Of a stretch of 64,000 nucleotides of DNA, positions 10,263 to 51,590 are shown in pieces. A model generated the notes under the pieces. It had not been told where the DNA came from. It made no database searches and worked only from the letters and a program-made list of their open reading frames with translations. The number at the start of each line of letters is the position of its first letter. Positions within the stretch are counted from its first letter, which is position 1. The translations under genes were made by a program, and so were the position numbers. The stretch is from Ancylostoma caninum (taxonomy: Eukaryota > Nematoda > Chromadorea > Rhabditida > Ancylostomatidae), in contig JBAJFG010000446.1 in NCBI GenBank assembly GCA_037903475.1, positions 682,001 through 746,000 of the forward strand. The letters are read 5' to 3'.

Positions 10263-11160
10263 TTAGGTTGGTGCAAAAGAAATGGCGCGTTTCTGTGTTG
10301 ACTTTATTTTTTCACATAACCTTAATGAACGAAAGCCTTGGGAACGACATAATTCCTTTGATTAGCAGGAATTATTGTTCATGGTATGAGTAGGTCTCCG
10401 AGGTCATGCGTAGAGAACTCGGAAAACTGAGAAACGAAGAACAAGAAAATTTTCGGTCTCAGGTCATCAAGTTTGGCAAATCATTTCTTATGGGACAGAG
10501 AGTTTGGGAACTGGTAAAAGTGACAGAAAAACTGCAAGTTTTCTGGAGAATACGATGGCTGCTTGAACGTTTCCTAGCAAAGTTATCACAATTTAAGGCA
10601 GCTCTCGGAAGCAAATTTAGGCCGAATGTTAGGGTGCAGAAAACTACATAGCTTTTGAGCCTCTCGAGTGCTTTTCCAGCGACCGCTCGCGACTTTTTGG
10701 AACAAAGAACAGTAAAAGGTATCGTTGTATGTGCTCTTTCCAAAAAGCCGCTTTAAAACGATCACCCTCCTGGAATCCTAGAAATAACAAGGAAAATGCA
10801 ACGAAGAGTTCCCATCCACATTTCCCCAATAGCAAAGCCGCTGCATCAGAGCTGAGGTATGGAGTAAGTGCTGACATCCTGACCAAATACAAAGATGGTG
10901 CTTTATGCTCTATTGCCGTTGGTATTGCAGAGAACGAGAAAAGTTCGAAAATTGAAGGCAAGGTTTTTGGATATTTTCTTTTGTTTTATGACTCCTAACT
11001 CCACCCGACCACCCGACATCTCTTATACGTACAGTACAAAAAAATTTCCATTGCTCTCTAAGCGTGTAACCATATCTGGATGTCATACCACGTCCAAAGA
11101 AAATTACATGGTTCTAAAAAATCGCGCCATTTCTAGATATAAAATATTGGATAAACAAGC
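10263..11160 (+). mobile_element. mariner-type element, one good end
   Basis: The left end is TTAGGTTGGTGCAAAAGAAA preceded by TA, closely related to the terminus at 3633. A likely decayed right end lies near 11119-11150, where CGCGCCATTTCT matches the inverted left end for 12 bases and then diverges. No transposase motif was recognised inside. The right boundary is uncertain. Confidence 0.5.
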
Positions 11161-11261
11161 GTGAAATGTTAAAATAAGTACATTAGTTCAAGTACAAATA
11201 TTGAATTTTTTTCAAGAATAGCTCTCCTTTGATGGAGTTTCTACATCGAAGGCTCCTTGAA

Positions 11262-11823
11262 TTAGGTTGAGCAATAAGTTCGTGCGGTTTTTCTGGACAT
11301 TCAGTGTATTTTCACGAAGCGGACCAGTTGAACCTAGGTTATTCTGAAAGTTAATTTCTGTAGTACTTCTTCTTAACATCTAGAGCATACGAAAAATCGT
11401 CTCATAACTTTAGGAACTGTGCGTTCAGGACAAGTTGCATCCTGCAGCTCAAAATCGTCCTCTCTGAAACAAGTATCCACTTCTGTGCTGTTCGCTTCCT
11501 CAGTACTGCTGTGCTGTCGCTTCATCAGTACTGGTTTCCAGCTAGATGCTGTTAACGTCTCCAGCAGCTTAAGCTGCATTTGTTCCACTATTGTAGAGAA
11601 ACAGTTGGAGGTGTCGAAGATGTGCGGTTTTGTGGAACTGGAGCGCCACATTTCATGCGATAGAAAATGAGAAGTGGCGGAAATTGGGGAAATTAGTTAC
11701 AATGTCCGTAAAGAGCAAAACAAGAGCTACAAAATGACCTATGATAGGCTGTCGGAGTCAGTTGAATCCTCGTGAAAAAATTGAGTTGAAAAAAAACCTG
11801 CACGAACCTATCGCCCAACCCAA
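11262..11823. mobile_element. non-autonomous mariner-type element
   Basis: The left end, TTAGGTTGAGCAATAAGTTC, is matched by an inverted right end, AACCTATCGCCCAACCCAA, followed by TA at 11824-11825. The terminal repeats run about 30 bp with several mismatches. The left flank is AA rather than TA, probably a later mutation. The 562-bp interior shows no transposase. Confidence 0.7.
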
Positions 11824-11825
11824 TA

Positions 11826-12727
11826 CATACTTTGAGAGTCCCTGCAGAAGTCTTTCATGAGTTCACAATAACATCTTTTTGCAAGTGAAGTACTCAACAA
11901 ATACTTCAAAGACCCCCTGCTCAACGTTCTCGAAATTCCTTGCACTCCAAACCAACCCAAACGTGAGCGGATCTTTAGAAGTGAGTTGGTGAGAAATCCA
12001 TAAGCAGAGACAGCGCAAATATTATGAACTCAATTGGTAATATCGGAAGCTTACGTAGCAACTATTTTTATCCCGGTCAATAAACGTTGCAGTGGAGAGC
12101 ACTCAGACATTCAGAAACTTTGAGATTTTCTTCAAGTTTAGGCATGAGTACCTAGAATTTTCCCCGCTCATGTAGTTACATGAATCGGAAAATCGAAGCA
12201 TCAGAGTAAAAGTGAGTATGTAGGTAAAACAGGGTCAGCTCCAAGCGATGTTATATATTTAGAAACATTCTTCGCTCTATTATCTCTCATACTTTCTAAA
12301 ATTAGTTCCAGACTATGTATCAGTTTTGGAGATTGTTTCTATGGACTCTCGTCTTAGAAAGCAAGTTGAATTTTCACTTATTTTTGCTAAAAAGTTCATC
12401 TTTTGTGTATCGCCAACGCACGGTTGACTGCAATCGAATAGACGGAATAACTAAAACGGAATAAACATCTCATATGCTTTTAAATTTTAGAAGAAACTGG
12501 CATACGAACAAGAATCGGCATGGGATGCCCCAAAAATAAGCGTGAGCTGCTACATGGAATGGCAAGGGGCGTGGCTGGCGAGAAGGTCGGATTGTGCAGA
12601 GTAAATAATTAACGGAGAAGCCTTAGAAACATCTCGCCTTTCCTGAAAAGAACTTTGGTCATGGTCTTTTGATTTTTAAGGGTTTCGATCTCTTATACGG
12701 TATTTATTGAAACCCACTGGTGAGCGT
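11826..12727. other. no supportable gene
   Basis: Only short frames without domains are present; nothing repeat-like with clear ends was seen. Confidence 0.35.
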
Positions 12728-12955
12728 AGGACAATTTATACGAGCTGCGTGTGTCAATTTCGCAAGTATATGCACGCATCTACTTGCGAAGGGTTTTCCA
12801 TGAAGACCGGTAAACGCGGCATGCACATTCTCAGTGAAGCGAACACGCGGTAACCGTGAAGCTGCAAACGCGTCCGTCTGAGCTGCGACTGAACCCTATC
12901 CTTCATCATATAGACGCAAGTGCGTCAGTCACATGCATCCAGTATAAACTGCCCT
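12728..12955 (+). mobile_element. MITE of the GGGCAATTTATAC family
   Basis: The termini AGGACAATTTATAC and GTATAAACTGCCCT form imperfect inverted repeats. Internal words GAAGACCGGT, CGCGGCATG and GTCTGAGCTGCGACTG are shared with the copy at 35301-35565 and a weaker one near 44630-44860. No target duplication is obvious here. A plus-strand frame just downstream (about 12967-13126) stays open after a CTTGCAG but has no recognised domain. Confidence 0.6.
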
Positions 12956-13343
12956 TGTAACCTTGCAGTGATTAGCCTTAGGCCCCACATGCGGCAAATC
13001 TCATTCGGAAAAATGGAGGTCCCTGTTGAAAATGCAGTCCCACTAGCGGACTCTGTTACTCTCGAGATTTCCACAGCAGCAGTTCACTTGGGAGAATTGA
13101 AAGCGGTCGGGAATCCTATTCTATGATGGCTTTTTTCCGAGAGTTATGGGATTCTCCACATTTGTGGAAGATGACCAGTGCATCATCACAAATGAGCCAC
13201 GGTTACAGCGCGATTTTCGACGTTACGAGACGTGTTCGCTATGTGCAAAGTATGGGTCCAAACCATAATCGGTTCGACCCTCGTAGAAAGATTATAGAAC
13301 GTGGCAACATATCAGAATAGGACAATGTGGCAAAGAAGTGCTT

Positions 13344-29419: not shown

Positions 29420-29494
29420 AGACCTTGTTTATGAATGACCGAGAGTCCGCTGCTTTATCCACTAGACCATCCTGCTGCTGATCTCTTCCATCCC
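29420..29494 (-). repeat. tRNA-like head, minus orientation
   Basis: Reading the minus strand: GATGGAAGAGATCAGCAGCA, then GGTCTAGTGGATAAAGC (A-box-like) and AGCGGACTCTC. The same head occurs in plus orientation at about 29860-29910 and at 62580-62660, and it resembles the D-arm of tRNA-Arg. Here it abuts the left end of the element starting at 29495. Confidence 0.55.
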
Positions 29495-29929
29495 CTCAGA
29501 CAATTCCGGGGGGCAAATCCCGTTCTTACCACCGGCAAATCCCCGACGAAACGTTTGAACGAGGACCAATAGCGGACAAACAGCGGGCGGAACCAAGCAT
29601 GTTGCGGGCCAAACGCGCTGTCGGGCGAATCGCGGGCTGAACGCAGAATCATTCGGGCTTATGCACCACCGTCGGGGTTCGGCCCGTTATGTGAAGAGTG
29701 TCGGGCATCGGCTCGCTTTCCGCGGCCACTGACCGCCGGCAAATACCTCCAAAAACGGCCTGAACGACTACATATTTCGTCTCAATACAGAAATGGCTCG
29801 GTCGGAATAGTTGGTAGGTGGTAGTACGCACTTGATAAAGGAGAAGGCAGCACCGGTATGGAAGAGATCAGCAGCATGGATGGCCTAGTGGACAAAGCAG
29901 CGCACTCTCACTCTGAAGTTTTTTCCCAA

Positions 29930-30213
29930 GTTACATGCAATTTTATTCCTAGCTTACATGAAGGCTTCACGCAAGTTAGCGATAAAACCGCATGTAAGTT
30001 GTTTCTGTTTCCAAAAGATTACATGTAAGCTTACGAAAAGATTACGTGTAAGCTTACAAAAAGCTTACATACAAGCTTACAAAAAGCTTACATACAAGCT
30101 TACAAAAAGATTACATACAAACTTACAAAAAGCTTGCATACAAGCTTACAAAAAGCTTACATGTAAGCTTGCAAAAAGGTTACATACAAACTTACAAAAA
30201 GCTTACATGTAAG
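29930..30213 (+). repeat. left subterminal tandem array
   Basis: About a dozen units of roughly 21-22 bp built on AAGCTTACAAAAAGCTTACA, with variants TACATGTAAGCTTAC and TACATACAAGCTTAC. The palindromic core TTACATGTAA also occurs beside the terminal repeat. Confidence 0.9.
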
Positions 30214-30344
30214 CAAGAGGAATAGCGAAAATTAAATCTATCCAGAGCAAATTTTGCCCTACGAAGACCAGCAGAGCTTATAGGTTGCTTTGTATTTCAG
30301 AAAAAATATTGGCGTAGTCATATAAATTATATAGAACTAGACGG

Positions 30345-31010
30345 CATACCCGGCTTAGCTCGGGTGTTTTACAACCCTGGCCCTCTCACACTGAAGAGGA
30401 TAATTGATATTGCTGATGAAATCATTGCAAGTACCCGTAATTTCGGTGGTGTGCACATTAGCCATGCCCAAGTTATCCTGCCCCCAAGTAACCGCGTAAG
30501 CGAAAATGAAGTTATTTCGATGGGAAATTCGTGGAAAACAGTTGCCATATTCGTACTTAGGTGTTTAGCGTGTTCGATTGATCCAGTAAGCACATTTTGC
30601 CCCTTTTCAGAAGCAGGAAAAGAACATTATTGAATCGATATATTCATGCAAAACAATTGTCGTATTTGTGTTCGGCATACTGAAAAATCCCTGTAGACAC
30701 GTCTCCACCAACCCATGGGCGAAAACAGCAAAAAGTCAATAAAACCGAGGAATCAACAATTCGTGCAGAATGGTTGTCATTTTCGTGTTCAGCGTATTGA
30801 CGAACCCCAGTAGACATGTGTCTACCGCCCCATGGGCAAGAACAGCAAAAAATCAATAAAGTCAATAAATCGATATTTTTGTGCAGAACGGTTATCATAT
30901 TCGTGTTCAGGGCATCAAGAAACCCCAGTAGGCATATCCTCATCGACCCCTGGAGAAAATCAGCGAAAAATCAATAAATCAACAAATTCATGGAAAAATG
31001 AAAACATGTC
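30345..31010 (-). repeat. roughly 115-bp tandem array with hairpin motif
   Basis: Starts with ACCCGGCTTAGCTCGGGTG, a short imperfect hairpin. From about 30520 to 31000 it carries one partial and three fuller units of about 115 bp with the order TTCGTGCAGAA, GTCATTTTCGTGTTCA, CCCCAGTAGACATG, CAGCAAAAAATCAATAAA. The same module lies in the opposite orientation at 51690-52345. Confidence 0.8.
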
Positions 31011-32275
31011 CGTTAGGCCTAGGGCATACTATACAGCGACGCTGTCGCGGTGAAGAAAATGAATGGAATTGATGAGAACCAAATGTTACGAACTCTCATA
31101 TCTTATCACACAGTTTGCATGGAATACTGTGCTGGCATAGGAGCCACCGTAAGAAAACTTGTGGTGGTGAAAGGTCGCAGCGACAGCGTCGCTGTGTAGT
31201 ATACGTAAGGCCTTAAAAGTGATATGAGGTGATCATCGTCCTCGGATCTAGAGTTAGGCGAACGATAGACTAGCACAATTCGATGGCGATTCATTGATTC
31301 AGAGTAGATGTCAAAAACGATGTGGTCAAAGGAAGCATTAGAAGTTGTTTCAATCTTTCAAAGGTGATGTCGTCGCGAATCAGTACACAAGTTCCCCCTC
31401 CTCTTTTGCCCAAGCGGTCTTTCCGGAGGAGGGAATATGGCAGATCACCAGTTATTTCAGAGTCAGAGAATTTGGGACAAAGCCATGGCTCGGTTACGAA
31501 AACAAAAACGGGCTTGTGTAAAGAGATCAAGTAGTGAAGTTCAGGTAGTTTGTTGGTAAGGCTTCTGTTGTTCAAAAGTAAGCAGGATAGACCTTGCAAG
31601 CCTAATGGTTTTTTGAGCCAGAAGCTTTGATCTTAAGGATGTCAGAAACTTTCACAACTTGTTCCCCATAAACTACATAAACTTTGCTACCATTATGTTC
31701 TTTCATATTTAGATCGCGTGCTTGCCTTCTGAGTTCCTTCTCCTTATCACGCTCCTCACGGGTTATGACCGCCGCACATAGATGTGGTCAAACCCGTGTT
31801 TATGGCGCAAAGTTGGTGCATTGCTTAGCGCTTTGCGGACAAAGCTCTTAGAAGGTAGTACACATTTGATACGTCTTACCCTCGGTGAAGTCGCCCATCC
31901 TGTATACTTCGGTCGGACGGGCTTCTACACCGAGCGCGCTCAGTACTTTGCAGGTCTCTGCTTCAGTATGAGCAAGCCGTTAAAACGAATCAAAAATTCC
32001 TTTGGCTTCATCAATACCAGCTATGGCAAGGGACCTTCCTCTCTTCTCGGACTCAATTATTACCCTAGGATCGAGCTGGAGTAGTTGTATTAATTGGTCC
32101 AACAAGGGAAGAGCTTCCGGAGCCTTATCAGCTAGTATTAACTGAAGCCTTATAATTACCTCATTCTTATCGGATCCTGTAGTGAAGGTGTTGGCAGTAG
32201 GTGGAACAGCGGGTTGGGAATCCGTCTTAGAGAATTCAGCATTAGCAGCAGATTTGCGGGTAAAGGCCATGATCA
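30985..32275 (-). pseudogene. CR1-like LINE fragment (ORF1-like region and endonuclease)
   Basis: Minus strand. The frame from 32270 reads MAFTRKSAANAEF, then LLQLDPRVIIESEKRGRSLA, and after a frameshift VLSALGVEARPTEVYRMGDF and ITREERDKEKELRRQARDLN with KVYVVYGEQVV, typical of CR1/T1-type nematode LINEs. A second frame (31599 down) is the apurinic endonuclease start: LLLNNRSLTNKLPELHYLI, TEPWL, PYSLLRKDRLGKRGGG. After another frameshift it reads RIVLVYRSPNSRSEDD. It is broken by a 197-bp MITE and lost into the 115-bp array; the reverse transcriptase is absent. Confidence 0.85.
31016..31212 (+). mobile_element. PIF/Harbinger-like MITE, 197 bp
   Basis: The termini GGCCTAGGGCATACTATACA and the inverted GGCCTTACGTATACTACACA share CAGCGACGCTGTCGC just inside. 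TTA flanks both ends (31013-31015 and 31213-31215), matching the TWA duplication of Harbinger elements. It interrupts the LINE endonuclease frame after the codons for LISLL. A second copy of identical length lies at 40471-40667. Confidence 0.8.
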
Positions 32276-32324
32276 GAGGGAACGGATTATCGACCGCTCA
32301 GGGGCGCAGATGAGACGAGAATGA

Positions 32325-32672
32325 AACATGTAAGTTGTTTTGATTCCAAAAAGATTACATGTAAGTTGTGGCGGCTCCATAAGATTACATGTAACTTGTT
32401 TTCACTCCAAAAAGGATACATGTAAGTTGCAAATCTGCGAAAACTTACATGTAGGTTGTTTTGACCTTGAATTGATTGCATGTAAGTTGTTTTGACTCGG
32501 AAAACCCTACAAGTAAGTTGTTTTGACTCGAATAATATCACATGTAAGTTATTTCGACTCGAAAATATCGCATGTAAGTTGTTTTGGCTCGAAAAAGATC
32601 GCATGTAGGTTGGAATGGAGAAGAAATGTTACATGTAAGTTGTTTCCGCCCTCAAAGCTTACATGTAACTTG
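32325..32672 (+). repeat. right subterminal tandem array
   Basis: About nine or ten units of roughly 30-38 bp built on ACATGTAAGTTGTTTTGACT and CGAAAAAGAT. It shares TTACATGTAA with the left array at 29930-30213 and with the terminal repeat of the enclosing element. Confidence 0.9.
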
Positions 32673-33186
32673 GGAAAAAACTTCAGAGTCAGTCATTCAT
32701 AAAGAATGGTCAGGTTGGTTGGAATCCTCTCAGTAATAGAAGAAGGCTGGCACTACGAAACCATGGATACGGCTTGCAAACAGCCATCTTTTCGTAATTC
32801 TGAAAAAATTTGCATATTTTATACACCGGTGGATCACGTTGGATCCACAATAGCTTCGAACCCGGAGCTCTTCCGTGCGAGACTGTGCCCTAGCAGTGAC
32901 CAAGGTGGCAGAGGTTATCACGGTGCCGGCGTCCAGCTGACCGGTAATTGTGAAGAATAACGCCTTGTGCGCTGGATTAGGAGCAGTAGCACCTGGTGGT
33001 TTGCGAGCTCATGGCGGCCTCAACGCGGATAGTACTCGCGCGGATAGGAATGCAAGCCTCGTTTTCAGCGGCCCTACAGCGGTCTGAATGCGACTACTTC
33101 TCGGGCGAAAACACCCAAACGCTCGTTCCCACCCTCGCCCCTCCCTCGTTCGGAACGGGATTTACTCCCGAAATTGTCTGAGCCGG

Positions 33187-33303
33187 TGTTGTTTTCATCC
33201 TCTATCACGTCCCTACTTTCACCAACCAATCATTCCCAACGTGCCAGTTCCTTATTGAGCCGAAATGTGTAGTCGTTAAGGCCGCTTTTCGGAGATACCG
33301 ACC
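33187..33303 (-). repeat. inverted fragment of the CTCAGACAATT-family element
   Basis: The minus strand matches positions about 62460-62575 (CGGCCTTAACGACTACACAT, then ATTGGTTGGTGAAAGTAGGG). It directly follows the right end of copy 1 but in the opposite orientation. Confidence 0.65.
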
Positions 33304-33970
33304 TGATCGTCCGGCTGACGCCGGACTCTCAGGCTTGTTTTCGTGATCGCTTCGCTCGCATATTTTCATTGTCCTCAGATAAGATTAGGGCAGGTGGATG
33401 AACATCCGCAGAGAAGTATTCTTTACCGCAGTTCATGAAACCATTGACCTCCTATGGATAGCTCCTTTCCAACAACGCATTTCGGTTCGCTGTGGTGGAC
33501 GTAAACAGTAAAAATTGACCAAGTATGTGCAAACTGGGATTGGACCTGAACAACGGTACACCCTTATCTCACCGTTGGGGCCTATCTCCAGAGGTTTCTC
33601 CACTTTTGAACGCCTACACCCTTATCATGCCATTAGACCCGACTCCACGCGTTACCCTGCTTTTGGATCCCGGCGCACCCATATCACGCCGTTGGACTCG
33701 GTGCCAGGCGTTTCCCCGCTCTTGGACGCCGGCGCACCTTTTCATAGCGCCATTGCACAGCTGTGAAACCGTCGGGTGGCGCCTTTCCTCTATGTGTGAG
33801 AGCCGGCGCACGTCACTTCCATCTGTGGACCACTTCTTGAGCATCGATCTCACTACCGAATGCCGTCGCCATCAGCAAACCCGATTCTCTACATTTTCCC
33901 CACTATGGAGTGTCGGCGCATCCCCAGCCCATAAGTGGGCCAGATTTTTAGCAACTTCGTCAGACGCTTA
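33304..33970 (+). repeat. terminal-hairpin element with GCGCACCC minisatellite, copy 1
   Basis: Begins with CCTGATCGTCCGGCTGACGC and CGGACTCTCAGGCTT, a hairpin with stems TCCGGC/GCCGGA and CCTGA/TCAGG. Then come CGCTTCGCTCGCATATTTTC, a unique stretch, and from about 33550 diverged units of about 50-55 bp containing CCGGCGCACCC.TATCAC and TGGACCCG. Positions 35575-36113 hold the inverted counterpart. The right boundary is uncertain. Confidence 0.6.
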
Positions 33971-34433
33971 GTCTAGCACACTTATCACATCGCTGCGGAC
34001 CCATCTGATGACATCTTTCCCACTACTGACTGCGTGCGCATCCTCACGCAGCTGTGCCTCCGTTTCTAGAACCCTCCTGCGAACTCCGCCGCCGATATCT
34101 TCTCCTCCTTGCTGTTCCCCTTCTATCTGGCTAGACCATTTCTCTCTAAAACATACTCACAGCATGTTGTTCTTTTCACGACTTGATAAACACCTGCAAA
34201 TAAACACCCAGACTCATTCATTTTGACTGTGATGTGAACAACTATAGGTTTTCCATGCGAAACAGAGTGAACCAAATTACCTGGCAATCAAAGTAAAAAG
34301 GAGAATTTGCACACTTTTTATATGTAACTTGACACGCTGAAATCATGGTGTAATCAGATTTTTCCGGTAGGGGCTGGTTCTCTTGTACATACACACAATG
34401 ACTTAAAATGCCAATTAGTATTAACTATGATTG

Positions 34434-34585
34434 GCCGGCGGTCAGTGGCCGCGAAAAGCGGGCTAGCGCGTTTGGCCCGCAACATGCGTGGTTTCGCCCG
34501 CTGTTTGCCCGTCCTCGTTCAAACGTTTCGTCAGGGATCTGCTGACGGTTGAAACGAGATTTGCCCCCGGAATTGTCTCAGTAGG
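34434..34585 (-). repeat. CTCAGACAATT-family element, left-arm fragment
   Basis: The minus strand reads CTGAGACAATTCCGGGGGCA, then ACGAAACGTTTGAACGAGGA, GCGGGCCAAACGCGCT and GGCCACTGACCGCCGG, matching the left arm of copies at 29495 and 62214. The overlapping 155-codon frame starting at 34488 is an artefact of this repeat. Confidence 0.7.
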
Positions 34586-35015
34586 CTGTAGAGCTATTTA
34601 CGCTAGTCAGACTTGCGTATACATTTGCAAGGAATTGTTCGTGAAGACCGGTCAACGCTGCATGAACTTCTTAGAACCTCAGCAACAACTATCTAACCAG
34701 CTTTTGAAAAACTGGTTTCAGATCGCATCTAAATCTTACTTCTTGTTAATTGGCAGTTCATGTGTGTGTATGTGCACGAGAACCAGCCATCAAAAATTGA
34801 GAATACCTATACCATCGTGTTCAGCGCGTCGAGTTATGTACGAAAATGTGGTAAATTTCGATTTTTACCTTGATTTACAGGTGTTTCGGACCCTTTTGTC
34901 ATTTTCAGACATGTTAATGGCTGACAGTTGTTTTGATCACTGTCGGAATGAATGAGATAAGCTTTTGATTACAGGACCGTATAAAAGGAAAGTGAAGGGT
35001 AGGACACCTGTATAG

Positions 35016-35294
35016 CAGTGGCGGACGCAGGGGGGGGGGGGGGGGGGGCGCGCCCCCCCCGAGAATGGGTCGCCAAATTTTCGAAATTACTTTACAATAC
35101 AAATAAAAATCTTGTGTTAGTTTATTTTTAATTGTTTATTTTTATTATTATTTTTAATATATTTTTTATTTATTGTTTATTATTATAATTAATATTATTA
35201 TTAATTTTATTTTCCGTCTGGGTCCCCAAAACGGCGGAGACCCCACTTTTCTTCCCACGCCCCCCCTCCCGCCCACTTTCTGCGTCCGCCACTG
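35016..35294 (+). mobile_element. hAT-type MITE, 279 bp, perfect 8-bp duplication
   Basis: The termini CAGTGGCGGACGCAG and CTTTCTGCGTCCGCCACTG are flanked by CTGTATAG on both sides (35008-35015 and 35295-35302). The structure matches the copy at 17593-17871 to the same total length: poly-G, GAGAATGGGTCGCC, AT-rich core, TTTTCCGTCTGGGTCC. It inserted at the left edge of the MITE that begins at 35301. Confidence 0.93.
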
Positions 35295-35300
35295 CTGTAT

Positions 35301-35565
35301 AGGGCAATTTATACTAGCTGCGTGCGTTAGTCGCGCATCAGTCGCACGCATCCATTTGAAAGGGATTTTCCATGAAGACCGGTCAACGCGGCATGTACAC
35401 CCTCAATGAAAAGAACGTGCGGCCGTCGCGAGGTAGTAAACGCGTGCGTCTGAGCTGCGACTGCGATGCGACTGCTATGCGACTGGGCCCTATTCTTCAT
35501 CATATAGTCGGCAATTTATACTGGGTGCGCGCGTCAGTCGCACGCACCCAGTATAAATTGCCCTT
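35301..35565 (+). mobile_element. MITE of the GGGCAATTTATAC family
   Basis: The ends AGGGCAATTTATACTAGCTG and the inverted AGGGCAATTTATACTGGGTG are clear terminal repeats. The internal words TTTTCCATGAAGACCGGTCA and GTGCGTCTGAGCTGCGACTG are shared with 12728-12955. A 3-bp TAT duplication is possible (35298-35300 before the hAT insertion, 35566-35568 after) but not certain. Confidence 0.7.
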
Positions 35566-35574
35566 ATAACGAAT

Positions 35575-36113
35575 AGGAGGAACCAGGCGAACGATGGATG
35601 ACACGGAGGAGGGTTATGCCTTAGTGGAGTGCTAGAGGTGGGCTGACGGTGTGATAAGGGTACGCTGGCGTCCAAAAGTGGGGAAACGCCTAGAGTCGGG
35701 TCCAACGGCGTGATATGGGTGCGCCGACGCTCAAAAGCGGAGAAACGCCTGGAGTCGGGTCCAACGAAGTGATAACAGTGTACAGAGGTTCCAAAGTGGA
35801 GGAACCTCTGGAGATAGATCCCAACGGTGATAAGGGTGCACCATTGTTCAGGTCCAATCCCAGTTTGCACTTACTCGGTCAATTTTCAATATTCACGTCC
35901 ACCATAGCGAACCGAAATGCGTTGTTGGAAAGGAGCTGTCCATAGTGGGTCAGCGGCTCCATGAACTGCGGTGAAGAATACTTCTCTGGATAGTGTCTGT
36001 TCATCCGACTGCATCAATCTTATCTAAGGACAATGAAAATATGCGAGCGAAGCGAACAAGAAAAGAAGCCTGAGATTCCGGCGTCAGCCGGACGATCAGG
36101 CTGGTAGTTGTAA
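35575..36113 (-). repeat. terminal-hairpin element with minisatellite, copy 2
   Basis: The minus strand repeats the order seen at 33304 onward: hairpin AGCCTGATCGTCCGGCTGAC at the 36113 end, CGCTTCGCTCGCATATTTTC, CTCCTTTCCAACAACGCATT, then units with GGCGCACCCATATCACGCCG. A truncated start of the same family lies at about 40453-40468. Confidence 0.65.
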
Positions 36114-40667: not shown

Positions 40668-40721
40668 TTAGAAATTCTTGTTTCTTATCACACTGTTTGC
40701 TTAGAATAGCGCGCTGGCATA

Positions 40722-41492
40722 CTCAGGCACTTCTAGGGGACCAGCCGCTGACCTAGATTTGACGGGCCGCGCAAGGGATGAAAACTGGTCAGCAATTGGG
40801 TACGCGGGCGGTCAGCTTCTGATCGAAAGCGGAGCAGCCGCGCACCCAATTGCTGACGGGCCGCGCTACATTTCCCGACGAGACGAGAACCCTTGCTCTC
40901 CCTTTTTGAATTCAGCCTTCATTGCATGTTCTCCGCTCCTATATATCCTTGTCGTGCATCTGACATCGTCAGTCATATGTATATCATCATTGTAGGCTAT
41001 AAGCAGGCTCACACTTGTGCGCAGCGTACACCGGGGTGCGCGGCGAGACCACCAGGCACCACGAGTAAGCACCATTGCATTTCGCTGCAATACTGGTTCG
41101 ATTCTCGGTATTGTAAAAATTTTTTTTAAAGGGCGGAATCTCTTCGGAATTAATTGTGGAGCAAAGAGGGTGACACACTACTGACAAGGGTGGACAGCCG
41201 AATGAACTGTATTTACACTGTTGGGTGAAGATAGGTGATGCTGCATATCACATGAAAGAACTTATTTACAATTGGGGTGCGCTGCTGGTCAGCTGAGATA
41301 AAGAAGGGTGCGCGGCCGGTCCGTTAGATAAGCATGGGTGCGCGGCTGGTCAGTTATGATAAAGAGGGGTGCGCGGCTGGTCCGCTAAGATAAAAAGGGG
41401 TGCGCGGCTGGTCCGCTAAGATAATAAGGGATGCGCGGGCGGTCCTCTACAATAAGGAAGGGTGCGCGGGCGGTCCCCTAAAAGTGCCTGAG
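40722..41492. mobile_element. TA-flanked inverted-repeat element with internal array
   Basis: The ends CTCAGGCACTTCTAGGGGAC and the inverted CTCAGGCACTTTTAGGGGAC are flanked by TA (40720-40721 and 41493-41494). The empty site is visible in other copies of the interrupted MITE (CTGGCATAGGAGCC), proving insertion with a TA duplication, as Tc1/mariner-type elements make. The 771-bp interior has a short palindrome (GGTCAGCAATTGGGT and CCCAATTGCTGAC, 40785-40860) and a one-sided array at 41274-41484. There is no transposase. Confidence 0.82.
41274..41484 (+). repeat. 31-bp tandem array, seven units
   Basis: Units follow GGGTGCGCGGCTGGTCCGCT plus AAGATAAAAAG. The last unit runs into the terminal repeat (GGTCCCCTAAAAGTGCCTGAG), so the array motif GGTCC.CTAA is a variant of the terminus itself. 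Confidence 0.92.
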
Positions 41493-42019
41493 TAGGAGCC
41501 ACTGTGAGAAAACTTGTGGTGGTGAACGGTTGCAGCGACAGCGTCGCTGTGTAGTATGTCATGGGCCTAAAAAACTTGTGGTGGTGAACGGTCACAGCGT
41601 CGCTATGTACTATGCTACAGACCTAAGAGTATGCCCAGACTTCGCCAGTTCAAAATGAATAAAATTGAACCGGCGATATGAGAGATAAGGAAATGACACG
41701 TATTGATTGCCACTTTAAATCGCCACGGATCGCCCGTACTCTTGAAGATGTGTCCAAAATGAACTGGCGACATGAGTGATAGCGATAGTGGGAACGATGC
41801 TTATCGATCGCCACACCCCATTTATTATCATCCCTCTTACGTCTGAGGTATTCTCACTCACTTTATCTATGTGGCGATCGCTGACGGTCGTGGCGATCGC
41901 GACGACAGCTGCAGTGGCGATCGCCACGATTGCTGGCAAAGTCTGGGGTTACTCTATTGTCGGAATATCAAGCTTCTTCTGTGCTCTCTTCGGTAGCCTC
42001 AATTCGTGTGTGTTCCACC

Positions 42020-42181
42020 ACTGAGGGCTCGGCGCAATATTTTCGCAGCTATGGACCCGTTCATGACACCTTCCTCACCACTGGACGCTGGTGCACCACT
42101 CTTGCAGCAATGGAACCGTCCAGTAACATTTTCTCCAGTACGGCAAACCAGCGTACCACTCTCGCAGCTGTGGATCCATCT
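42020..42181 (+). repeat. degenerate minisatellite
   Basis: About three units of roughly 55 bp (GCAGCTATGGACCCGTTCAT, CTGGTGCACCACTCTTGCAG, GCAAACCAGCGTACCACTCT) related to the GCGCACCC/TGGACCCG minisatellite at 33550 and 47830. Just upstream (41700-41940) GGCGATCGC words recur several times. Confidence 0.5.
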
Positions 42182-42628
42182 AATGACGATTTCGGGGACA
42201 AATCCCGTTCCAACCTGCGGGAAATCCCCGACGAAACGTTTGAAAGAGGACCAATAGCGGGCAAACAGCCGGTGAAATCACGCATGCTGCTGGCCAAACG
42301 CGCTGTTGAGCGAATAGCGGTTGAACCAGAATCATTCGGGTTGGTGCACGACCGTCAGGGTTCGGCCAGCTACTCTGATGTTCATTGGCGATACATTTGG
42401 CGAGGTTTGTTTGGCAACCTCGCAGACGAGCGTACCAACCGTGTAGGCAAACGAAGCCCGTCAAATGTATTGCCAAACAATAAGCCCCGCAAAATGTATT
42501 GCCAAACAAAACTCGTCGAATGTATCGCCACGCAAAGCTTGCCATTTTTATCGCCAAACAAACCTTGCCAATTGCATCGTCAAACAAAAGGGTTATCAAC
42601 CGCGCAAAGATTTTGATATCCTTAGGAT

Positions 42629-43188
42629 GAGGGCGCGTGTGGCGCAGTGGTAAGAGGCTCGCTGCGCACGCACACGATCGATGGTTCGATCCCAAAGGCC
42701 AACCAAGTCTTCCATCCCTCCGGCAGTGGCGGACGCAGAAAGTGGGCGGGAGGGGGGCGTGGGAAGAAAAGTGGGGTCTCCGCCGTTTTGGGGACCCAGA
42801 CGGAAAATAAAATTAATAATAATATTAATTATAATAATAAACAATAAATAAAAAATATATTAAAAATAATAATAAAAATAAACAATTAAAAATAAACTAA
42901 CACAAGATTTTTATTTGTATTGTAAAGTAATTTCGAAAATTTGGCGACCCATTCTCGGGGGGGGGCGCCCCCCTCCTGCGTCCGCCACTGCCCTCCGGGG
43001 TCGGTAAATTGGTACCAGAGGAGTCTGGGAGGATGAAGCACTGACTTGGTACATCGGTGCCCCCCGCAAGTCATTGTACAGGGCACATACGCATTCAACG
43101 CCTCTACGAAGCCCAGATGAAGTCGAATGCGTGGCGCATCCCTCGTGACGGGATTGATTAACGCCGGCCACTTTATCCTTTTATCCTT
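42629..43188 (+). mobile_element. tRNA-derived SINE interrupted by a hAT MITE
   Basis: The A box TGGCGCAGTGGTAAGAGGC (about 42640-42658) and B box GGTTCGATCC (42683-42692) give a tRNA-type promoter. The body resumes after the MITE (ACATACGCATTCAACGCC, GATGAAGTCGAATGCGTG, GGGATTGATTAACGCC) and ends in TTATCC repeats. TATCCTTAGGAT flanks it at 42617-42628 and 43189-43200, a 12-bp target duplication. Without the MITE and its duplicated 8 bp the SINE is about 285 bp. It matches 22113-22336. Confidence 0.88.
42724..42990 (-). mobile_element. hAT-type MITE, 267 bp, perfect 8-bp duplication
   Basis: The termini CAGTGGCGGACGCAG and GCGTCCGCCACTG are flanked by CCCTCCGG at 42716-42723 and 42991-42998. 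It is in the opposite orientation to the copies at 17593 and 35016, to which it is otherwise nearly identical in order. It lies inside the SINE body. Confidence 0.94.
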
Positions 43189-43205
43189 TATCCTTAGGAT
43201 ATCGT

Positions 43206-43270
43206 GCCATGATACCAATCCTCGGAGTCCTCTGCCTTACCAACTGAGCCATCAGCCAGCCGACAACACC
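43206..43270 (-). repeat. tRNA-like sequence, degraded
   Basis: The minus strand reads GGCTGATGGCTCAGTTGGTA and AGGCAGAGGACTCCGAGG, a good A-box and D-arm-like region. The expected GGTTCGAATCC B box is degraded (CACGATATCC). It is probably the head of another SINE, not a functional tRNA. Confidence 0.5.
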
Positions 43271-44056
43271 GATGGTTAAGCCTCCAACTAAGAATGAAAT
43301 GAACGCCTTATCAGAACACCCGTGAAATGTATTGCCATACAAACCTTGCCATTTGTATCGCCAAGCAAACCTCGTCAAATGTATTGCCAACAGATTCTCT
43401 TGCCTTTTATATCGCCAAACACCCGTAAAATGTATCGTCAACAGATTGTCTTGCCAAATGTATCGCCAAACAGGCTCTTCACTCATTCTCCCGTAAATCA
43501 TATTGCCAAGCAAAATTTTATCCCGTGCAATGTATTGCCAAACACATTCTCTTGCCAAATGTATCGCCAAATGTACCGGGATGGAAGCTATCAGCAGCAG
43601 TAGTGGATAAAGCAGCGGACTCTCAATCATTCATGAATAAGCCCGGGTTAGTTCGGATCCACTCAGTAATAGAAGAAAGCTAGTACTACGAAAACATGGA
43701 TGGACCTTGCAAACAGTCATTTTCTCGTATTTCTAATGAGAATTTGCCTATTTGTGTTAGATTTATGCTCCTGTGGATCAATTCCTATCCACAGTGGCTT
43801 CGAACCCGAGGCTCTTCCATGCAAGACTGACTGTGCGCAAGCAGTGACCAGGCTGAGGTTGTCACGGTGCAGGCGTCCAGTTGACAAGTAATTGTGGAAT
43901 GCTGCCTTGTGCGTTCGATCAGGAGTAGTGGCATTTGATGGTTTGTTGCGGGCTCATGGCGATCTGAACGCGGACAGTACTCGGGCAAAAACACCCAAAC
44001 GCTCGTTCCGACCCTCGCACCCCGCTCGTTCGGGATTTGCCCCCGAAAAAGGCTGA

Positions 44057-45166
44057 GTTGTAGCTGAGCTCCAGCTCACTCGCACAACGTTCTGGTCCTG
44101 TCACGTGACGAGTTTCTCACTAATGGGTGTTGGCGTACCTCTTCCATAGCTGCCGACACATTCTTCCTGCTTACATCTGTGCCGACGCACCCTTGTGCCG
44201 TGTGATTGGTTGCCCGTCACACGGGCCCGTCCTGAATGTTGTACCAGGAAGTATACTCGTTTCGTACCTCAGAGCTGGCTTCAAAACTGGGTGCTTGCTC
44301 AGCATACCCACTTCCTTTAATTGCCTTGACCATGAAGTCCAGTGTTTCTGGAAGCTATGTAGGGTTTACGTCATGACTGCCTCCCTGCGGACATCCTTTC
44401 AACGGCATATAGGAGGAAAGTTCAGACGACGCACAAATGTCCAGAAGCAACTCCGTTTTGGAATGTTTTCGATCCTGCTGCACCAGAGGGAAATGGGCTT
44501 CTGAGATCCGAATAAAGCAATTTTGTTGGCAGTGGTCCTGCTAAGTCAGTCCCTTAATTTAACCACCACTTGTTCTCATTTAGAGTTTTCACACCACGCG
44601 AACCTCGGCCAAAAATCTTTGGGTCACCCTGTAGATGCATGTGTCTGTCGCAGACATTTGTTTGCAGAGGATTTCCTATGAAGACCGGTCAGTGCCGCAT
44701 GTACCATACATTCTGGATGAGAATAATGCACAACCGCCATGAATAGAAGCAACACTGCAAACACGTGCGTCTGACTTGCGTCTGAGCTGCGTTGAGAATG
44801 CGACTGGATCTAGCGTTCGTCTACGCACGCTCATCAAAAGCATGCACCTGGTATTACAAATAGCACTAAAGGGTGTTGCCAGTTTAGGAATTGCATAATT
44901 TCTTATTTACAGTTTAGGAGTTGCATAATTTCTTATCCTTATTTCTATGTGTGTTTCGCTCCCAGTATTAAATTGTCCATCATCAGAATCGGATTAATTT
45001 TTCAAGCTTTGCGCCAAACTTTTTACGAGGGTTTTGTATTGGACCTGACACAACTCTACTAATATCTCTTCAGAAATGAACCATTCGAACCCGACTCACC
45101 TTCTCAATAACGACGGGATCTCCATGTGCTTTTCCCTGCAATTTTCTGTAAAGCCTAATTATTTAG
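44057..45166. other. repeat-rich stretch, no supportable gene
   Basis: Positions 44120-44200 hold decayed GCCGACGCACCC minisatellite units. Positions 44630-44860 (CCTATGAAGACCGGTCAGTG, GTCTGAGCTGCGTTGAGAAT) are a diverged GGGCAATTTATAC-family MITE. The 125-codon frame at 44127-44504 starts in the repeat and has no domain. AGTTTAGGAATTGCATAATT is locally duplicated at about 44880-44930. Confidence 0.4.
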
Positions 45167-45829
45167 GGCAAAAATGGTTCGACAAGTATGAACAGGAATG
45201 AGCTGCCTTGCTTGCGATTGCGGTGGAATAAGAAGCGCAACGACATTCAAGCCCAGGCATTAGGACATTCATCGGAGAAAAGCGTTGCTGTAAATGTCAG
45301 TAAAGAAGAAGCGATGCAACAACGCGGCAATGTTGCACTCCAGAAAAGGGACATCAACATGGATTATGACGATAAAACCACCACCACATCAAAGGAAGAG
45401 ATAACTGGGACTACAATCCTTGATACAACTGAAATTTCGGCGGAAAAGTCAACTGAAGCTATGACCCATCCAGGAATGGACGATGTGGTCCCAGTAAAAA
45501 CAGAAGATATGATCCCAGCAACAACTGCAGTTAAGACCACTGAAACAACTGAAACATCGACCACTGGAACAACTGAAGGTACCAGCACGTCCACTACTGA
45601 AGCGCCAACTACCACCACAATAACAACCTCAACACCTACTACTACTACGGCCACTACTACGACGTCGATATCTACCGAAACCACACACACAACAACTTCC
45701 ACATCAACTACTCCCACAACTACTACAATAACAAGTACTACACCCATTCTTCCTATAAAACCGAAAGTCGTTAGCACACTGGCTCCGAGCGTGACTTCTA
45801 GTGTTATCTCTGCGACAGAGATTGACGAC
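45167..45829 (+). CDS. Thr-rich mucin-like exon
   Basis: The frame opens after the acceptor-like ATTATTTAG and runs 221 codons to a GTACGA donor, ending in phase after TEIDD. The first part is mixed and charged (NRNELPCLRLRWNKKRND, KEEAMQQRGNVALQKRD). From about residue 65 it becomes Thr/Ser/Glu-rich, with long TTTT, TTTTTS and TTET runs, typical of heavily O-glycosylated mucin-like or cuticular surface proteins. No signal peptide is present in this exon, so an upstream exon is expected. A weak acceptor (AACGAAAAG, near 45904) would continue in phase into FVFQLAMLAVNKDL, but this is unproven. The reverse-strand Val-rich frame is an artefact. Confidence 0.55.
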
Positions 45830-47217
45830 GTACGAATTTTTTTCTCGTTTTTTGCTTTAAATTCTTTTTCAACATTTTTTGAATTGCCACTGGCTCAACG
45901 AAAAGTTTGTCTTCCAACTGGCCATGTTAGCAGTAAATAAGGACTTGAATGATTCGAAAATACTTTTAAGCTCCTCAATCTCCACGGGTAGGTTTCAGAT
46001 GACAGCAACTGATCTACTCCTTTCTTACTGCTCTGATACATTTTATTGTCAGAAATGTGGCCATTCACTTTTGTCAAAGGCAACGCTCGTGCTCCAGAAT
46101 TTTGGCTCAGTATCTAAAATACTAAGAAAAGGTCCGTGTTTGACATGGATCAGGGGAAATTTAGATTATTTATTATTTAGCTGCTATTATTATTTATTAT
46201 TTATTATTTAACGGCTCAGACTCCTATTTCCTTTTCACTTCAAAGAGATGTAGATGAGAAGCTCCTGTAGCGTGACAGCCCTAAGGTTTCTCTACCAGCA
46301 CGCTAGTATCACGAATTCTCTCCAATCAGCTACAGGAGGAGCTTGTCATTTACTTCTCCTAATGAGCCGGATTGTGGTCTGTCTCAAGTCCAAGCCACCG
46401 TCTTTTAACTTGCGAAGCCAAATGTTCACCGTGCCTAAGAGATAGAGGAGAGATCTTTCCTACGACATATGGTTTTTGCAGCATCGCTTTCGTTGCTGAA
46501 TCTCCTGAGCTCGCAGAGCTGACATAGTAGAACATTGTGTTGTGATCGATGAGGATTTTTGGTTATAATCGGTAGGAGAAATAGGTATAGGTATATGACC
46601 AACTGATCTCTATATAAGTTCTGAATAGAAGGTTCGGAGCAACCCCGAAAAAATCGGCAATACACGAAAGTGAGTGGATGGAAAGTTTAGCGGGTTTCGT
46701 AGTTGCGTAGCTCCGCGCCGCGCCATATGACGAAGGATAGGGCGCGGAAACACAGAGTGAGCTCGCGCAGCAAATGCCGCAAAGAGGGGGGGGGGCTTTC
46801 AAGGATTTTGCCTCACGCGAGCCCTCCGCGGCAATTTGCTAGCTCGCTCTGCGAGTCGCTGGGTCGAATAGTCTGGCGTATTCGTTGCCGAGCGGAAACC
46901 CAGCGCAACTTCCAGAGCGAGAAGCTTACCGCGCGCGGGTCACCTCTACCGCCGCACTTCCAGACTTCTTCTAATGCTCGCTTCGCTCGCATTAACTCAT
47001 CTTGTAACCACACCAATATAACTTATTTCTCTAATTGAAAAAGGATGGAAAATGCAGCATTGCACTGCTTTCTCTTTTACTCTTTCCTCTGCGCTAAGAA
47101 ACCCGCTACAGAGCAGTAACCTAGCCGACGACGCTAACCTCCCGTCCTAGTTCACATGCAGCTTTCCGTTGATTGCAACCATTAAGAGCAGCTCCAGTGG
47201 ACGGCTATGGCGGTGGT
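45830..47217. other. region downstream of the mucin-like exon
   Basis: Further exons of the mucin-like gene may lie here but were not identified with confidence. TTATTATTTA simple sequence lies at 46160-46210 and a GC-rich segment with CGCTTCGCTCGCAT at 46700-46995, a word also found in the terminal-hairpin family. Confidence 0.3.
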
Positions 47218-47432
47218 CCATCTGCGGCCTCGAGAAGGACGCCGCGCAACCGCACCGCGCGCAATGGGATCGGTGTCGTCTGCCACCGGAGTGCTATTTC
47301 TAAGCTTTTTTTTCTTCCCGATTTAGTCAAAAACCCTTGAAATCGCGTCTAGAAATAGCATAAAAGCAGCAGAAAACATCGGTTACTGCACGCGAGGCGC
47401 GGTTTCGCGACGTCCTCGAGGCCGCAGATGGG
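47218..47432. repeat. foldback sequence, about 215 bp
   Basis: CCATCTGCGGCCTCGAGAAG at the left and the inverted CCATCTGCGGCCTCGAGGAC at the right pair almost perfectly for 17 bases and further with mismatches. Inside, GTGCTATTTCTAAGC and CTAGAAATAGCAT form a second inverted pair. It may be a MITE; no target duplication was seen. Confidence 0.6.
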
Positions 47433-47828
47433 CCAACGCCACTGACGTCCATTGTACAATCGACCGATTTACCATAGGATGATGACAGGAAATAGTTGCC
47501 AGTTCTTGCATGTTATAGTTGGAAAAATGATAAGAGTTAACTTGAATATGAAAGGCGGTGGGGTATAGTTAGGTACAAATGAGAGGGAATCAACCGTGGA
47601 GATGGTGTGAGATGGAGCAAAGGATACAAATGCACATTATACATCTATTACATCAATGCCATCGCTTGGCACTTACCAATATTGCGTTCTGTTACGGCCC
47701 TCACTTGCAGGAGAACTCGTCATGTACTGCTTTTTTTTCTAACTGGTGTAGGCGCACTCCTCCAATAACTTTGGACACTGATAGGTGCCTTTGACGCTAT
47801 AATGACTGCTATGCGCTGTATCGGATAG

Positions 47829-48050
47829 AGGTGCGCCGGCGTACAGAAGTGGATATTCGCCGGCTGATGGGTTCAGCGGTATCACAGTAGTGGACCCGTC
47901 TCCCCTACTTCTGTGCGCCGGCGCACCTTTATCACAGCAGTGGACCCGTCTCCCCACTTCTAGGCGCCGGCGCACCCTTATCATAGCAGTGGACCCGCCG
48001 CCCCCACTTCTGGGCGCCGGCGCACCCTTATCACAGCAGTGGACCCATAG
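47829..48050 (+). repeat. 48-50-bp minisatellite, four to five units
   Basis: Units follow GGCGCCGGCGCACCCTTATC, then ACAGCAGTGGACCCG and TCTCCCCACTTCT. Adjacent units are nearly identical, so amplification is recent. The same unit, more diverged, lies in the hairpin family at 33550 and 35650. Confidence 0.9.
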
Positions 48051-48142
48051 TGAGTCTTCAAACAACCTAGAGATATGATTAGAGTAGGATAACCGCCCTA
48101 CTATTCATTCAAAGCAGGATGAATGAATTTCGTGGCACACAG

Positions 48143-48178
48143 ACGCACACACACACACACACACACTTACACACAGAC
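48143..48178 (+). repeat. (AC)n microsatellite
   Basis: About thirteen CA units followed by one break and a few more. Confidence 0.9.
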
Positions 48179-50299
48179 TAAGCCCATTATTATAAGTGAA
48201 ACTAAGTCATAGGCCTTTAATACGGCAAAGTCTTAGAACAAGGAATAAGACTGTTCCGAAAGTGAAGAATATTCATGCATATAACCTGCTTTCCTTCCAG
48301 CACTCCGCAGTTTTTCCGCACTTTCGCTTGCTAATTTTCCAGCTCGTGTCATTCCAACTATCTTTCCCGCTGAAAAACTATGGCAAGTGTCAGTGTAGGA
48401 TTCTCATAGTGTTGAGTAAGCATCCGCTCCATTTTTTCCCGTCAGGAAAGATGTGTTCTGCGTGGAGAGTAGTTAGGGCACCACCACCGCCCTCAGATGA
48501 ACAGCGAGTCTACAAATGGGTTTACCTATTTTGGAACTCGTCCGCATTTCGGTGCAAATGCTTAGTATTCTGAACTCCCTATCGTAGCTTACCTGCCTGC
48601 GAGGACGTAGAACCCAGGATAGTGAGCACGAACCAAGAGCGTGCTGTAGGCTATGATGGGGAAAGGGTCAAAGGCAGCCCTCACGGGAATTTCGCTATCA
48701 CGGGTTTTGCTATATTCCTAGGTTTAGCATTATACTGGAAACGGATGCTGTGTTCAATGTTGTCCAATCCTACAGAAAAGGTTTTTCTCATTGTCAAGAG
48801 TTAGCCCGTTTGCACAGAATGGCAGAGTTGTCCGGACTTAGAATGGAAGGAAGTGAGACTAGGAGCAAATGTTATGAAAATGAATGAGAGTGATTGTAAA
48901 CGAAAATAACCGTTCATTTTACGCTTCATTTATCCCGGCTGGAACGCCGGAACAAATCTAATCCTATCTTGAGGATGCTGATAGCTACGGCGCTGCAACT
49001 TTCGTAGAATCTTTGCGTCCACTGGTGTGTATCCAAAACTATCAAAATCTCTGACACGAATATTTCCGTGGGTGCCGCCTTTAAGAAACTGAGTGAAGGT
49101 GCAGTATATTTGTTGATCCTTCCTCGAAATGGCTCATTATGTATATTGACAATGTTGTGCATGTTTTTAGTTCAATGTTGAGTAGGCTAATCATATTGGG
49201 CAAAATGAATCCTTTAATCGCAACTTCTCCGAAAGGAATGATTTTTGTGATCATTTCATGAATGGTGGGGTATTCTGAGATCTTTCATACAGAATAGACT
49301 TTAAATCACGATCCGAAGCGAAAAATGCGACAGTGTTGGCTCGCACCGCCTTCATTCAAGCACATACCTCCTAACTCGAGTAATTTTGAGCCGACTTGAA
49401 TTTTTTATGGTGAAGCTACATGCTTAACCTTATCATTAGAATTTTTGGACTGAAGAAGCCTTCTTTCGTAAGCCTTCGGTGGCTAAGAGTTGCAAATTAT
49501 AAATTATTCCACAGTGGTTTTATTTTCCTTCCTTACATGTCCATACATGCTTCAGGAACGAGAAATTGCACTGGGCATGAAGAAGAAGAGGATTTACAAG
49601 TAAGCCAGAACCATAAATTAAGTGTTCTTATTCAATAATGTTTAATTTTGCCCAATCGCACGTCAAGATCAAGAATTCTTTCTATCCAGTATGGACCGTG
49701 ATCCATTGGCTGACGGATTTATTGGATAAAGAAGACGATCTTCATGTGTGATGGGCAGGGACCTCATGATTTCTGATGCACCTCGGATACAAATAAGGTT
49801 GCGCTTTTATGCTCACACTCCAACCACCAACCCTCTACCCTTTCTCGCTTCGTCAGCTTCCCACTCGTCCCTTCAAAGCATTTCTCAAGGACGCACTGGA
49901 ACGGCACGAGCGCACAGGAAACGATGCCCCTCCCCTGCTTCTTTCGCTTATACTAGGCCTCTTTGCCGAAAAGTGATGAAACTTGTGTGGAAAATGGTGG
50001 GACATTGCAGAGTTTTCTGCCTTTCCCGTTTTTCTCCCACCGTTCTCACCAGATTCCAAACCTGGCTACTCAGGTAGAATCCATGACTGTCTCACCCCGC
50101 GATCATATTTCGAATCGCAGCATTCACGGTCTTGTGGTGTGAGATCATCTTTGGTCACTATGATAAGTCGCAGACCCTCCCCCTTCCCATGACGTGGGTG
50201 GGTGGACCGAGAGACTGTGATTGGCTACCCCTCCACTTTGCCTACCGCCACTGGGTGATTTGGAGTAAACAAGGCGCATCAAAGGGAAGCCGATGATTA
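48179..50299. other. no supportable gene
   Basis: Several 60-125-codon frames without domains; none could be joined across splice signals. Confidence 0.3.
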
Positions 50300-51001
50300 C
50301 TCAGACAAACCCTCGCTGGGCGCGCGCGACAATCTCGCTGGGCGCGCAGGTAAGGCCCCGGCAGAAGCGAGATTGGGGCGCGCGCCCAGCGAGTTTGTCG
50401 CGCGCGCCGAGCGACCGAGATACAAGCGCGCGCCCAGCGAACTTGGAGCGCGCGCCTTGCGAGTTTGTCAAGCGCGCCTTGCGAAATTGGCGCGCGCGCC
50501 CAGCGACGATGTCACAACCGGTCAATACAGGATGGTGGCCAGGTGTTTAACGTTGAGCGACAAGGGTCCAACACATAGATGTATTGATGGTGCATGACCA
50601 CCTTTACAAAAATGGCCGCTACGACCTTCCCTTCAATGGATCAGGCTAGCGGTTAAAAAAATATTCCCTTCACGCCATCTAAAACTGGAACAGCCGGCCG
50701 CTCTGACCGGCGGACTCCCACAGATGTTGCTTCGTATTTCTTGCTGGTGAAGATGTGTTCTCGCGCGCGCCCAGCGATGTTGTCGCGCGCGCCCAGCGAG
50801 CGGCTTTCGTCGTCTGCGTCCTTCGAAAATCGTCCCTCGTCTGCTCCGCACCCAGCGAAGTTGTGCTCCGGCAGAAGCGAGCGACTTTACCGACCTGCGT
50901 CTTCGAAACTGTACTATTTTCTTCTGCTCCGAAGCGAAGCAAGGGTCGCTTCTCGCGGAGACCTCAAACAGGTGCGCGCGACCAGCGAGGGTTTGTCTGA
51001 G
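50300..51001. mobile_element. GC-rich inverted-repeat element with internal arrays, TA-flanked
   Basis: The ends CTCAGACAAACCCTCGCTGG are identical on both strands and flanked by TA (50298-50299 and 51002-51003). Just inside, both arms carry repeats of GCGCGCGCCCAGCGAG, the inverse of the terminal CTCGCTGGGCGCGCGC, spaced about 29-32 bp with short unique spacers (TTTGTC, ACTTGGA). The centre (about 50515-50740) is ordinary sequence. The CpG-dense composition is quite unlike the AT-rich surroundings. The 187-codon reverse frame is an array artefact. Confidence 0.8.
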
Positions 51002-51003
51002 TA

Positions 51004-51590
<587 letters not shown>

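Follow-up and report, generated by a model that had tools for sequence, protein, structure and literature searches.

Why should an inverted-repeat element carry, just inside its ends, an array of copies of its own terminal motif? The question is raised by a 64-kb window of the nematode Ancylostoma caninum (GenBank assembly GCA_037903475.1, 348 Mb in 638 contigs; contig JBAJFG010000446.1, positions 682,001 to 746,000), in which a preliminary description made from the sequence alone had singled out four such elements, here called E1 to E4. Its author took their termini to be unrelated and considered the design a general process of the genome. The reading preferred here, to which a probability of roughly 0.66 is given, is that E1 to E4 are non-autonomous members of four families within one cut-and-paste DNA transposon class, marked by shared tips, by a target-site duplication (TSD) of 2 bp (once 3 bp) and by family-specific arrays of binding sites. 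The features concerned are as follows, in positions of the window.

29911 to 32688, no strand assigned: E1, 2778 bp, with CTCTGAAGTTTTTTCCCAAGTTACATG terminal inverted repeats, the first 22 of 22 bases identical; TSD TCA (29908-29910 and 32689-32691); sits within E5
30013 to 30208, no strand assigned: E1 left subterminal array, 23-bp period, palindromic TTACATGTAA sites
32326 to 32672, no strand assigned: E1 right subterminal array, period of about 31 bp
40722 to 41492, no strand assigned: E2, 771 bp, CTCAGGCACTTYTAGGGGACC ends; TSD TA (40720-40721 and 41493-41494)
41275 to 41481, forward strand: E2 right array, 31-bp period, seven units including the terminal one
42373 to 43577, no strand assigned: E3, left end CTCTGATGTTCATTGGCGATACATTTGGC; right limit approximate
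42448 to 42589, forward strand: E3 left subterminal array, period of about 26 bp
43315 to 43472, forward strand: E3 right subterminal array, tandem repeats
50300 to 51001, no strand assigned: E4, 702 bp, CTCAGACAAACCCTCGCTGG ends; TSD TA (50298-50299 and 51002-51003)
50366 to 50514, reverse strand: E4 left subterminal array with a 22-bp period, opposite in orientation to the left tip
50756 to 50799, reverse strand: E4 right subterminal units
29495 to 33182, no strand assigned: E5, CTCAGACAATTYCGGG ends; TSD CC; E1 inside; without an array of its own end motif

Arrays built from the terminal motif

The arrays are indeed copies of the elements' own ends, as had been proposed. Among the 14-mers of each element's outer 45 bp the best was chosen and its internal copies were counted at no more than two mismatches; E1 gave 19, E2 6, E3 8 and E4 8, above the maxima of 2, 1, 2 and 1 reached in 60 dinucleotide shuffles of each interior. 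The E3 count of 8 refers to an element cut at 42385-43570; with the true left tip, a recount gave 10 internal copies against 1 in 60 letter shuffles. In all four elements the array unit is a copy of the inner part of the terminal repeat, and the outermost bases are confined to the ends (12 in E2 and E4, 14 in E3, about 20 in E1). The core common to end and unit in E2 is GGGTGCGCGG..GGTCC.CTA; the unit GGTCCGCTAAGATAA, which had been read as a copy of the end, matches it mainly in its first half. The limits first assigned to E1 (29911-32688), E2 (40722-41492) and E4 (50300-51001) hold. For E3, placed at 42380-43577, the element and its arrays stand and the start does not: genome copies locate the left tip CTCTGATGTTCATTGGCGATACATTTGGC at 42373, seven bases further out and 14 outside the supposed end motif. 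A right-hand tip was looked for in the window copy of E3 and none was found.

The placement and orientation of the arrays are alike across copies. E2 was followed in the 13 of 21 loci (the window and L009-L028) that have both ends at no more than four mismatches: an inverted site lies at +13 in all 13, a forward site at +77 and an inverted one at +106 are present in 11, and the right units stand about 33, 64, 95, 126, 156 and 187 bp from the end, mostly 30-31 bp apart and fewer in some copies. E3 has a forward site at 15 in 16 of 16 copies and, to the left and to the right, inverted sites at spacings of mostly 23-29 bp, with one copy (L049) having no inverted sites on the left. In E4, forward sites at 13 and 35 are followed by inverted left sites mostly at 22-bp steps, and the right sites are inverted. 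In E3 and E4 the left tip therefore points in one direction and almost every other site in the opposite one.

This layout would suit sites bound by a transposase. Short repeats of a binding motif inside both ends are likewise described for the hAT elements Hermes and Herves (PMC10368747, PMC3143072), and in Hermes the left-end repeats STR2-7 run antisense, STR1 does not, and the right-end repeats STR1-5 run sense (PMC10368747), an arrangement like that of E3 and E4. If the preferred reading is right, the outermost 12-20 bp, whose first letters are common across families, would form the cleavage end, and the inner terminal repeat with its subterminal copies, which is family-specific, would be where the family's own transposase docks with its DNA-binding domain, presumably reading the sites in an asymmetric left/right layout like that of Hermes. 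The number of units would be altered by slippage or unequal recombination between them, with the tips left untouched, and activity may have been supplied by an enzyme like the decayed one in a 15.2-kb E2-ended element, described below.

Shared tips and short target duplications

Because all four elements begin with 5'-CTC[A/T]G (CTCWG; E1 CTCTGAAG, E2 CTCAGGCAC, E3 CTCTGATGTTCATTGGCGATACATTTGGC, E4 CTCAGACAAAC), the view that their termini are unrelated fails; the earlier reader had picked them without regard to the tip. E5, with CTCAGACAATTYCGGG ends, came to light when the window was scanned for pairs of CTC[A/T]G; having been found by its prefix, it gives no independent support for shared tips. 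Further CTCAG ends lie inside the 15.2-kb element, on contig C632, in DNA that was retrieved for reasons other than a tip search (C632 positions are those of the reverse complement of L081 plus L082). A 301-bp element at 11184-11484 (L081 4218-4518) has CTCAGACAAAAGT ends, is flanked by a TT duplication and contains 22-bp arrays of its motif CCGTGCGAGCGGG; it is enclosed by a 2.2-kb element at 11136-13334 (L081 2368-4566) with CTCAGACAAAAA ends, 16 of 30 bases matching ungapped, and a CT duplication. A lone tip CTCAGACAATCA at 5785 (L082 near 1916), 1.9 kb upstream of the transposase remnant, has its own inner motif GCGTGCGACCCGCGT four times, from +15 onward, at 5799, 5828, 5869 and 5898, and no right partner for it was found. 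Six tip pairings were tried in C632 and two have duplications; two of the three new elements, the 301-bp one and the lone tip, were checked for own-motif arrays and carry them, their tips not having been chosen for arrays. The motif CTCAGACAA is common to E4, E5 and the C632 tips at 5785, 11136-13334 and 11184-11484, and their inner motifs differ.

An origin of the four families in as many separate superfamilies, with CTCWG shared by coincidence, is scarcely credible. Their ends do differ past the first letters, and the duplication of E1 is 3 bp, but four of four tips agree and CTCAGACAA recurs in E4, E5 and C632; the odds on coincidence, slight to begin with, were lowered further because additional CTCAG ends were found inside C632. 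A control on prefixes, weak and run outside the known families, gave four CTCWG pairs, three with equal 2-bp flanks, and 46 pairs for six control prefixes, eight with equal flanks; a window pair at 33328-36074, located in foldback arms and without equal flanks, was removed by the filter against known ends. In two of the four CTCWG pairs (L052 and L028) the inverted repeat extends outward past CTCWG, which leaves L018 and L066 as the only pairs with the look of true tips. The E2 right array of L018 is interrupted at 2820-3093, between its inner and outer units, by a 274-bp CTCAGAACCCC element that has a CT duplication. Since all four elements share CTCWG tips, the array design more probably belongs to a single transposon class than to a genome-wide process; the earlier idea of a general process acting on unrelated elements is not supported, and E5, a CTCAG element, has no array.

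The duplications are short and, in E2, of many sequences. By chance, 2-bp agreement would be expected near 1 in 16. E2 has a 2-bp duplication at 16 of 17 distinct paired insertion sites (12 of 13 complete copies and four of four further sites: L083, L084, L085 with L086, which repeats its insertion and is scored with it as one site, and C632), some tips among the further sites being mutated (L083, C632); the duplicated pairs are TT, AT, AC, AA, AG, GA, TG, CA and TA, with AT in one of 16. In E4, for which 21 loci were taken (L046 is without an end pair and L047 outside the alignment), 19 of 20 paired copies have a 2-bp duplication (16 TA, 2 GA, 1 AC, AT none), and 14 of the 19 lie within T|TA|A. 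E3 has one in 8 of 16 hand-chosen pairs (the window copy is without a right end, and L063 is excluded as a duplicate of L056), and in L062 one E3 element is nested in another with its own duplication. In L085/L086 and in L056/L063 the two loci agree in element and flanks but come from different contigs, as segmental duplicates or haplotypes would; the L086 element is about 3.4 kb longer than that of L085.

For E1, the 3-bp duplication TCA is matched by empty-site paralogues in the window at 62623 (exact) and at 43617 and 29431 on the reverse strand (one mismatch each); those of E2 lie in the window at 31131 and 40586, and the CC of E5 comes from comparison with related DNA near 62567. At window 29441-33184 there is a nest: E1 lies in E5, which in turn lies in an E5-like stretch in inverted orientation, and separate target duplications flank E1 and E5. 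E3 is likewise embedded in E5-like DNA. Elsewhere, window 3631-4332 holds a pair of TATTAGGTTGGTGCAAAAATA inverted repeats, which we take to resemble mariner ends and which, like other inverted-repeat elements of the window, do not start with CTC[A/T]G, and a perfect GT repeat of 198 bp lies near E4 at 51392-51589.

These features were compared with those of known families. Tc1/mariner elements make TA-only 2-bp duplications, and membership is rejected by the TT, AT, AC, AA, AG, GA, TG and CA found beside TA in E2. CACTA/CMC elements carry subterminal repeat arrays bound by a transposon protein and have CAC tips (CACWR), from which CTC[A/T]G differs, and a search for the plant-type Transposase_21 (PF02992) gave no match, its control being equally silent. 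Their duplications of 2-4 bp (PMC4482050) are like those seen here. Membership in hAT requires duplications of 5-8 bp (PMC4482050), whereas E2, E3 and E4 have 2 bp and E1 has 3 bp; the CTCWG tips and the long tandem, fairly evenly spaced units also set E1 to E4 apart from hAT. PHIS/ISL2EU elements duplicate AT within A|AT|T (PMC4482050), unlike E4 (TA in 16 of 19, AT none) and E2 (AT in one of 16), and no pair of CTCWG ends was seen around the 12 loci inspected of 112 genome matches to DDE_Tnp_4, each with some 1.5 kb of flank on either side. Kolobok has a TTAA duplication and 5'-RR tips (PMC9587614), against 2-bp duplications and 5'-CT tips here. Titles and abstract openings, covering the literature in part, yielded no description of CTCWG tips with 2-bp duplications. 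The anatomy is of a known kind, and the tips and duplication fit no family tested.

A decayed transposase between E2-type ends

Two distant E2-type ends on C632 enclose 15.2 kb, with a CA duplication and a mutated tip, and the E2 array positions are kept, with right units at 33 to 187. Broken frames inside this element read DGAYDSRGYSA, TDRNSAF and HFYDPWHLTKSL, and are the remnant of a decayed DDE-type transposase distantly like the PF20700 'Mutator-like' proteins. A read-through query from C632 matches two proteins of Pristionchus mayeri (E 2.0e-8 and 6.5e-7), both with PF20700; P0001 and P0002, relatives of the remnant, match that profile at E 5.4e-13 and 1.7e-14. Among the best 7987 candidates, a search with P0002 found one protein from a fish and 22 from Pristionchus, P0002 being one of them; five of these 22 are THAP proteins by name or type. 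The Pristionchus proteins, compared by protein alone, share DG.YDSRGYSA, TDR and DPWH with the remnant at about 29% identity. An alignment of 13 relatives (A1) has 16 invariant columns, of which the remnant matches 10, including D384, D455 and the D and H of DxxH; DPWH follows TDR in the remnant, and D..H is invariant in A1. A C/DxxH motif after the second D marks a group of DDE transposases that comprises hAT, P, MuDR, Kolobok and Dada (PMC9587614).

Structural comparison gave a fold hint only: the model of relative P0009 has a low mean pLDDT of 49, and its best Foldseek match was the ISCth4 transposase (E 5.8e-5, rmsd 19.6). The A1 profile searched against PDB sequences gave a single match, to an unrelated-looking protein at E 0.31. 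No Pfam match was found for nine open reading frames of the window or for six read-through frames of the E2 copy L016, whose substitutions against eight copies follow no steady codon pattern. Of the autonomous relative suggested earlier as something to look for, one trace was found: a transposase that lies between E2 ends, decayed and possibly that of a nested element. The C632 element also contains foldback-like DNA related to an element at window 33302-36100, which has inverted arms of about 450 bp, a 59-bp internal minisatellite and an end motif that differs from its array unit.

It is possible, as a distinctly tentative reading, that these elements represent an undescribed lineage of eukaryotic DNA transposons, with CTC[A/T]G tips (commonly CTCAGACAA), 2-bp duplications that can have almost any sequence, a transposase distantly Mutator-like and phased, directional arrays of the element's own motif, in which the cleavage end is shared and the binding address is a separate module, replaced and re-amplified in each family. 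The enzyme is only loosely tied to this picture.

Variation between copies and the role of the arrays

Unit number varies among copies of E2 and E4 with fixed ends, largely in whole-unit steps, which is the outcome that the preliminary description had asked about. The right arrays of 13 E2 copies hold 7, 4, 6, 6, 6, 6, 4, 6, 2, 5, 4, 6 and 5 units, with recognizable unit types lost or gained; the 2 of L018 are those of its last 330 bp, more lying past an insertion. Across 19 aligned E4 copies, six of eight length differences of at least 10 bp measure 22-26 bp and fall inside the arrays, and the other two measure 17 bp and 10 bp (a single loss may be common to L041 and L042). The E3 motif was used to select 28 loci, and in every one of them the 29-base end of E3 occurs at least once with six mismatches or fewer, the tip of L003 being degenerate; this test is partly circular because the motif is half of the end, and the loci are 28 of 415 places, several overlapping and many chosen for looking paired.

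Such variation would also be expected if the arrays were neutral, with slippage or unequal exchange expanding a tip-adjacent stretch, copies hitch-hiking and unit number irrelevant to movement. This alternative is judged unlikely, and several observations that weigh against the preferred reading speak for it. In E4 the motif columns are no better conserved than their surroundings (mean majority share outside CpG in 19 copies: motifs 0.948, array spacers 0.951, middle 0.944, all other columns 0.960), and only the tips stand out, at 0.993 for the terminal 12 bp of each end. E5 spread without an array of its own end motif, despite its CTCAG tips. In Hermes about 220 bp of each end are needed, yet the authors of that study consider it unlikely that transposition in cells is helped by auxiliary transposases binding within the ends (PMC10368747), which speaks against a simple docking role. 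The preferred reading is further weakened in that half of the E3 pairs are without a duplication, that E1 is known from the window copy alone, and that the enzyme is uncertain: among the loci retrieved a transposase match was found in the C632 element alone, in a broken copy whose fragment reaches E 0.2 against PF20700, under the Pfam cut-off, and, because further CTCAG ends lie inside that element, the enzyme may belong to the nested element with the tip at 5785, to E2, or be cargo. Neutral arrays are nonetheless countered by the recurrence of the same kind of array beside the tips in several families, by inverted left sites that simple tandem expansion does not make, and by the retention of the E2 sites +77 and +106 in 11 of 13 copies and of the right units at 33 to 187 in the 15-kb copy.

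A further possibility raised earlier, that the arrays seed satellites, has a precedent in Tetris of Drosophila virilis, a non-autonomous foldback element that has tandem repeats inside its terminal repeats and whose ends are reported to start long tandem arrays (PMC4079207). Variable unit number would agree with this; however, Tetris has units of about 220 bp and satellite-like arrays of kilobase size (PMC4079207), and here the units are 22-31 bp, the longest arrays seen have about nine units (E1), and a partial look, at the window and 28 of 415 E3 places, found no long array or satellite. Satellite seeding is therefore considered very improbable.

If the preferred reading of one class with family-specific binding arrays is true, a single genome would offer a natural series for comparing the tip, the binding motif and its copy number across families and copies. 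It would give a direct route to how transposons change their specificity and to what multiple subterminal sites do, and the shared tips would turn four curiosities into one testable class.

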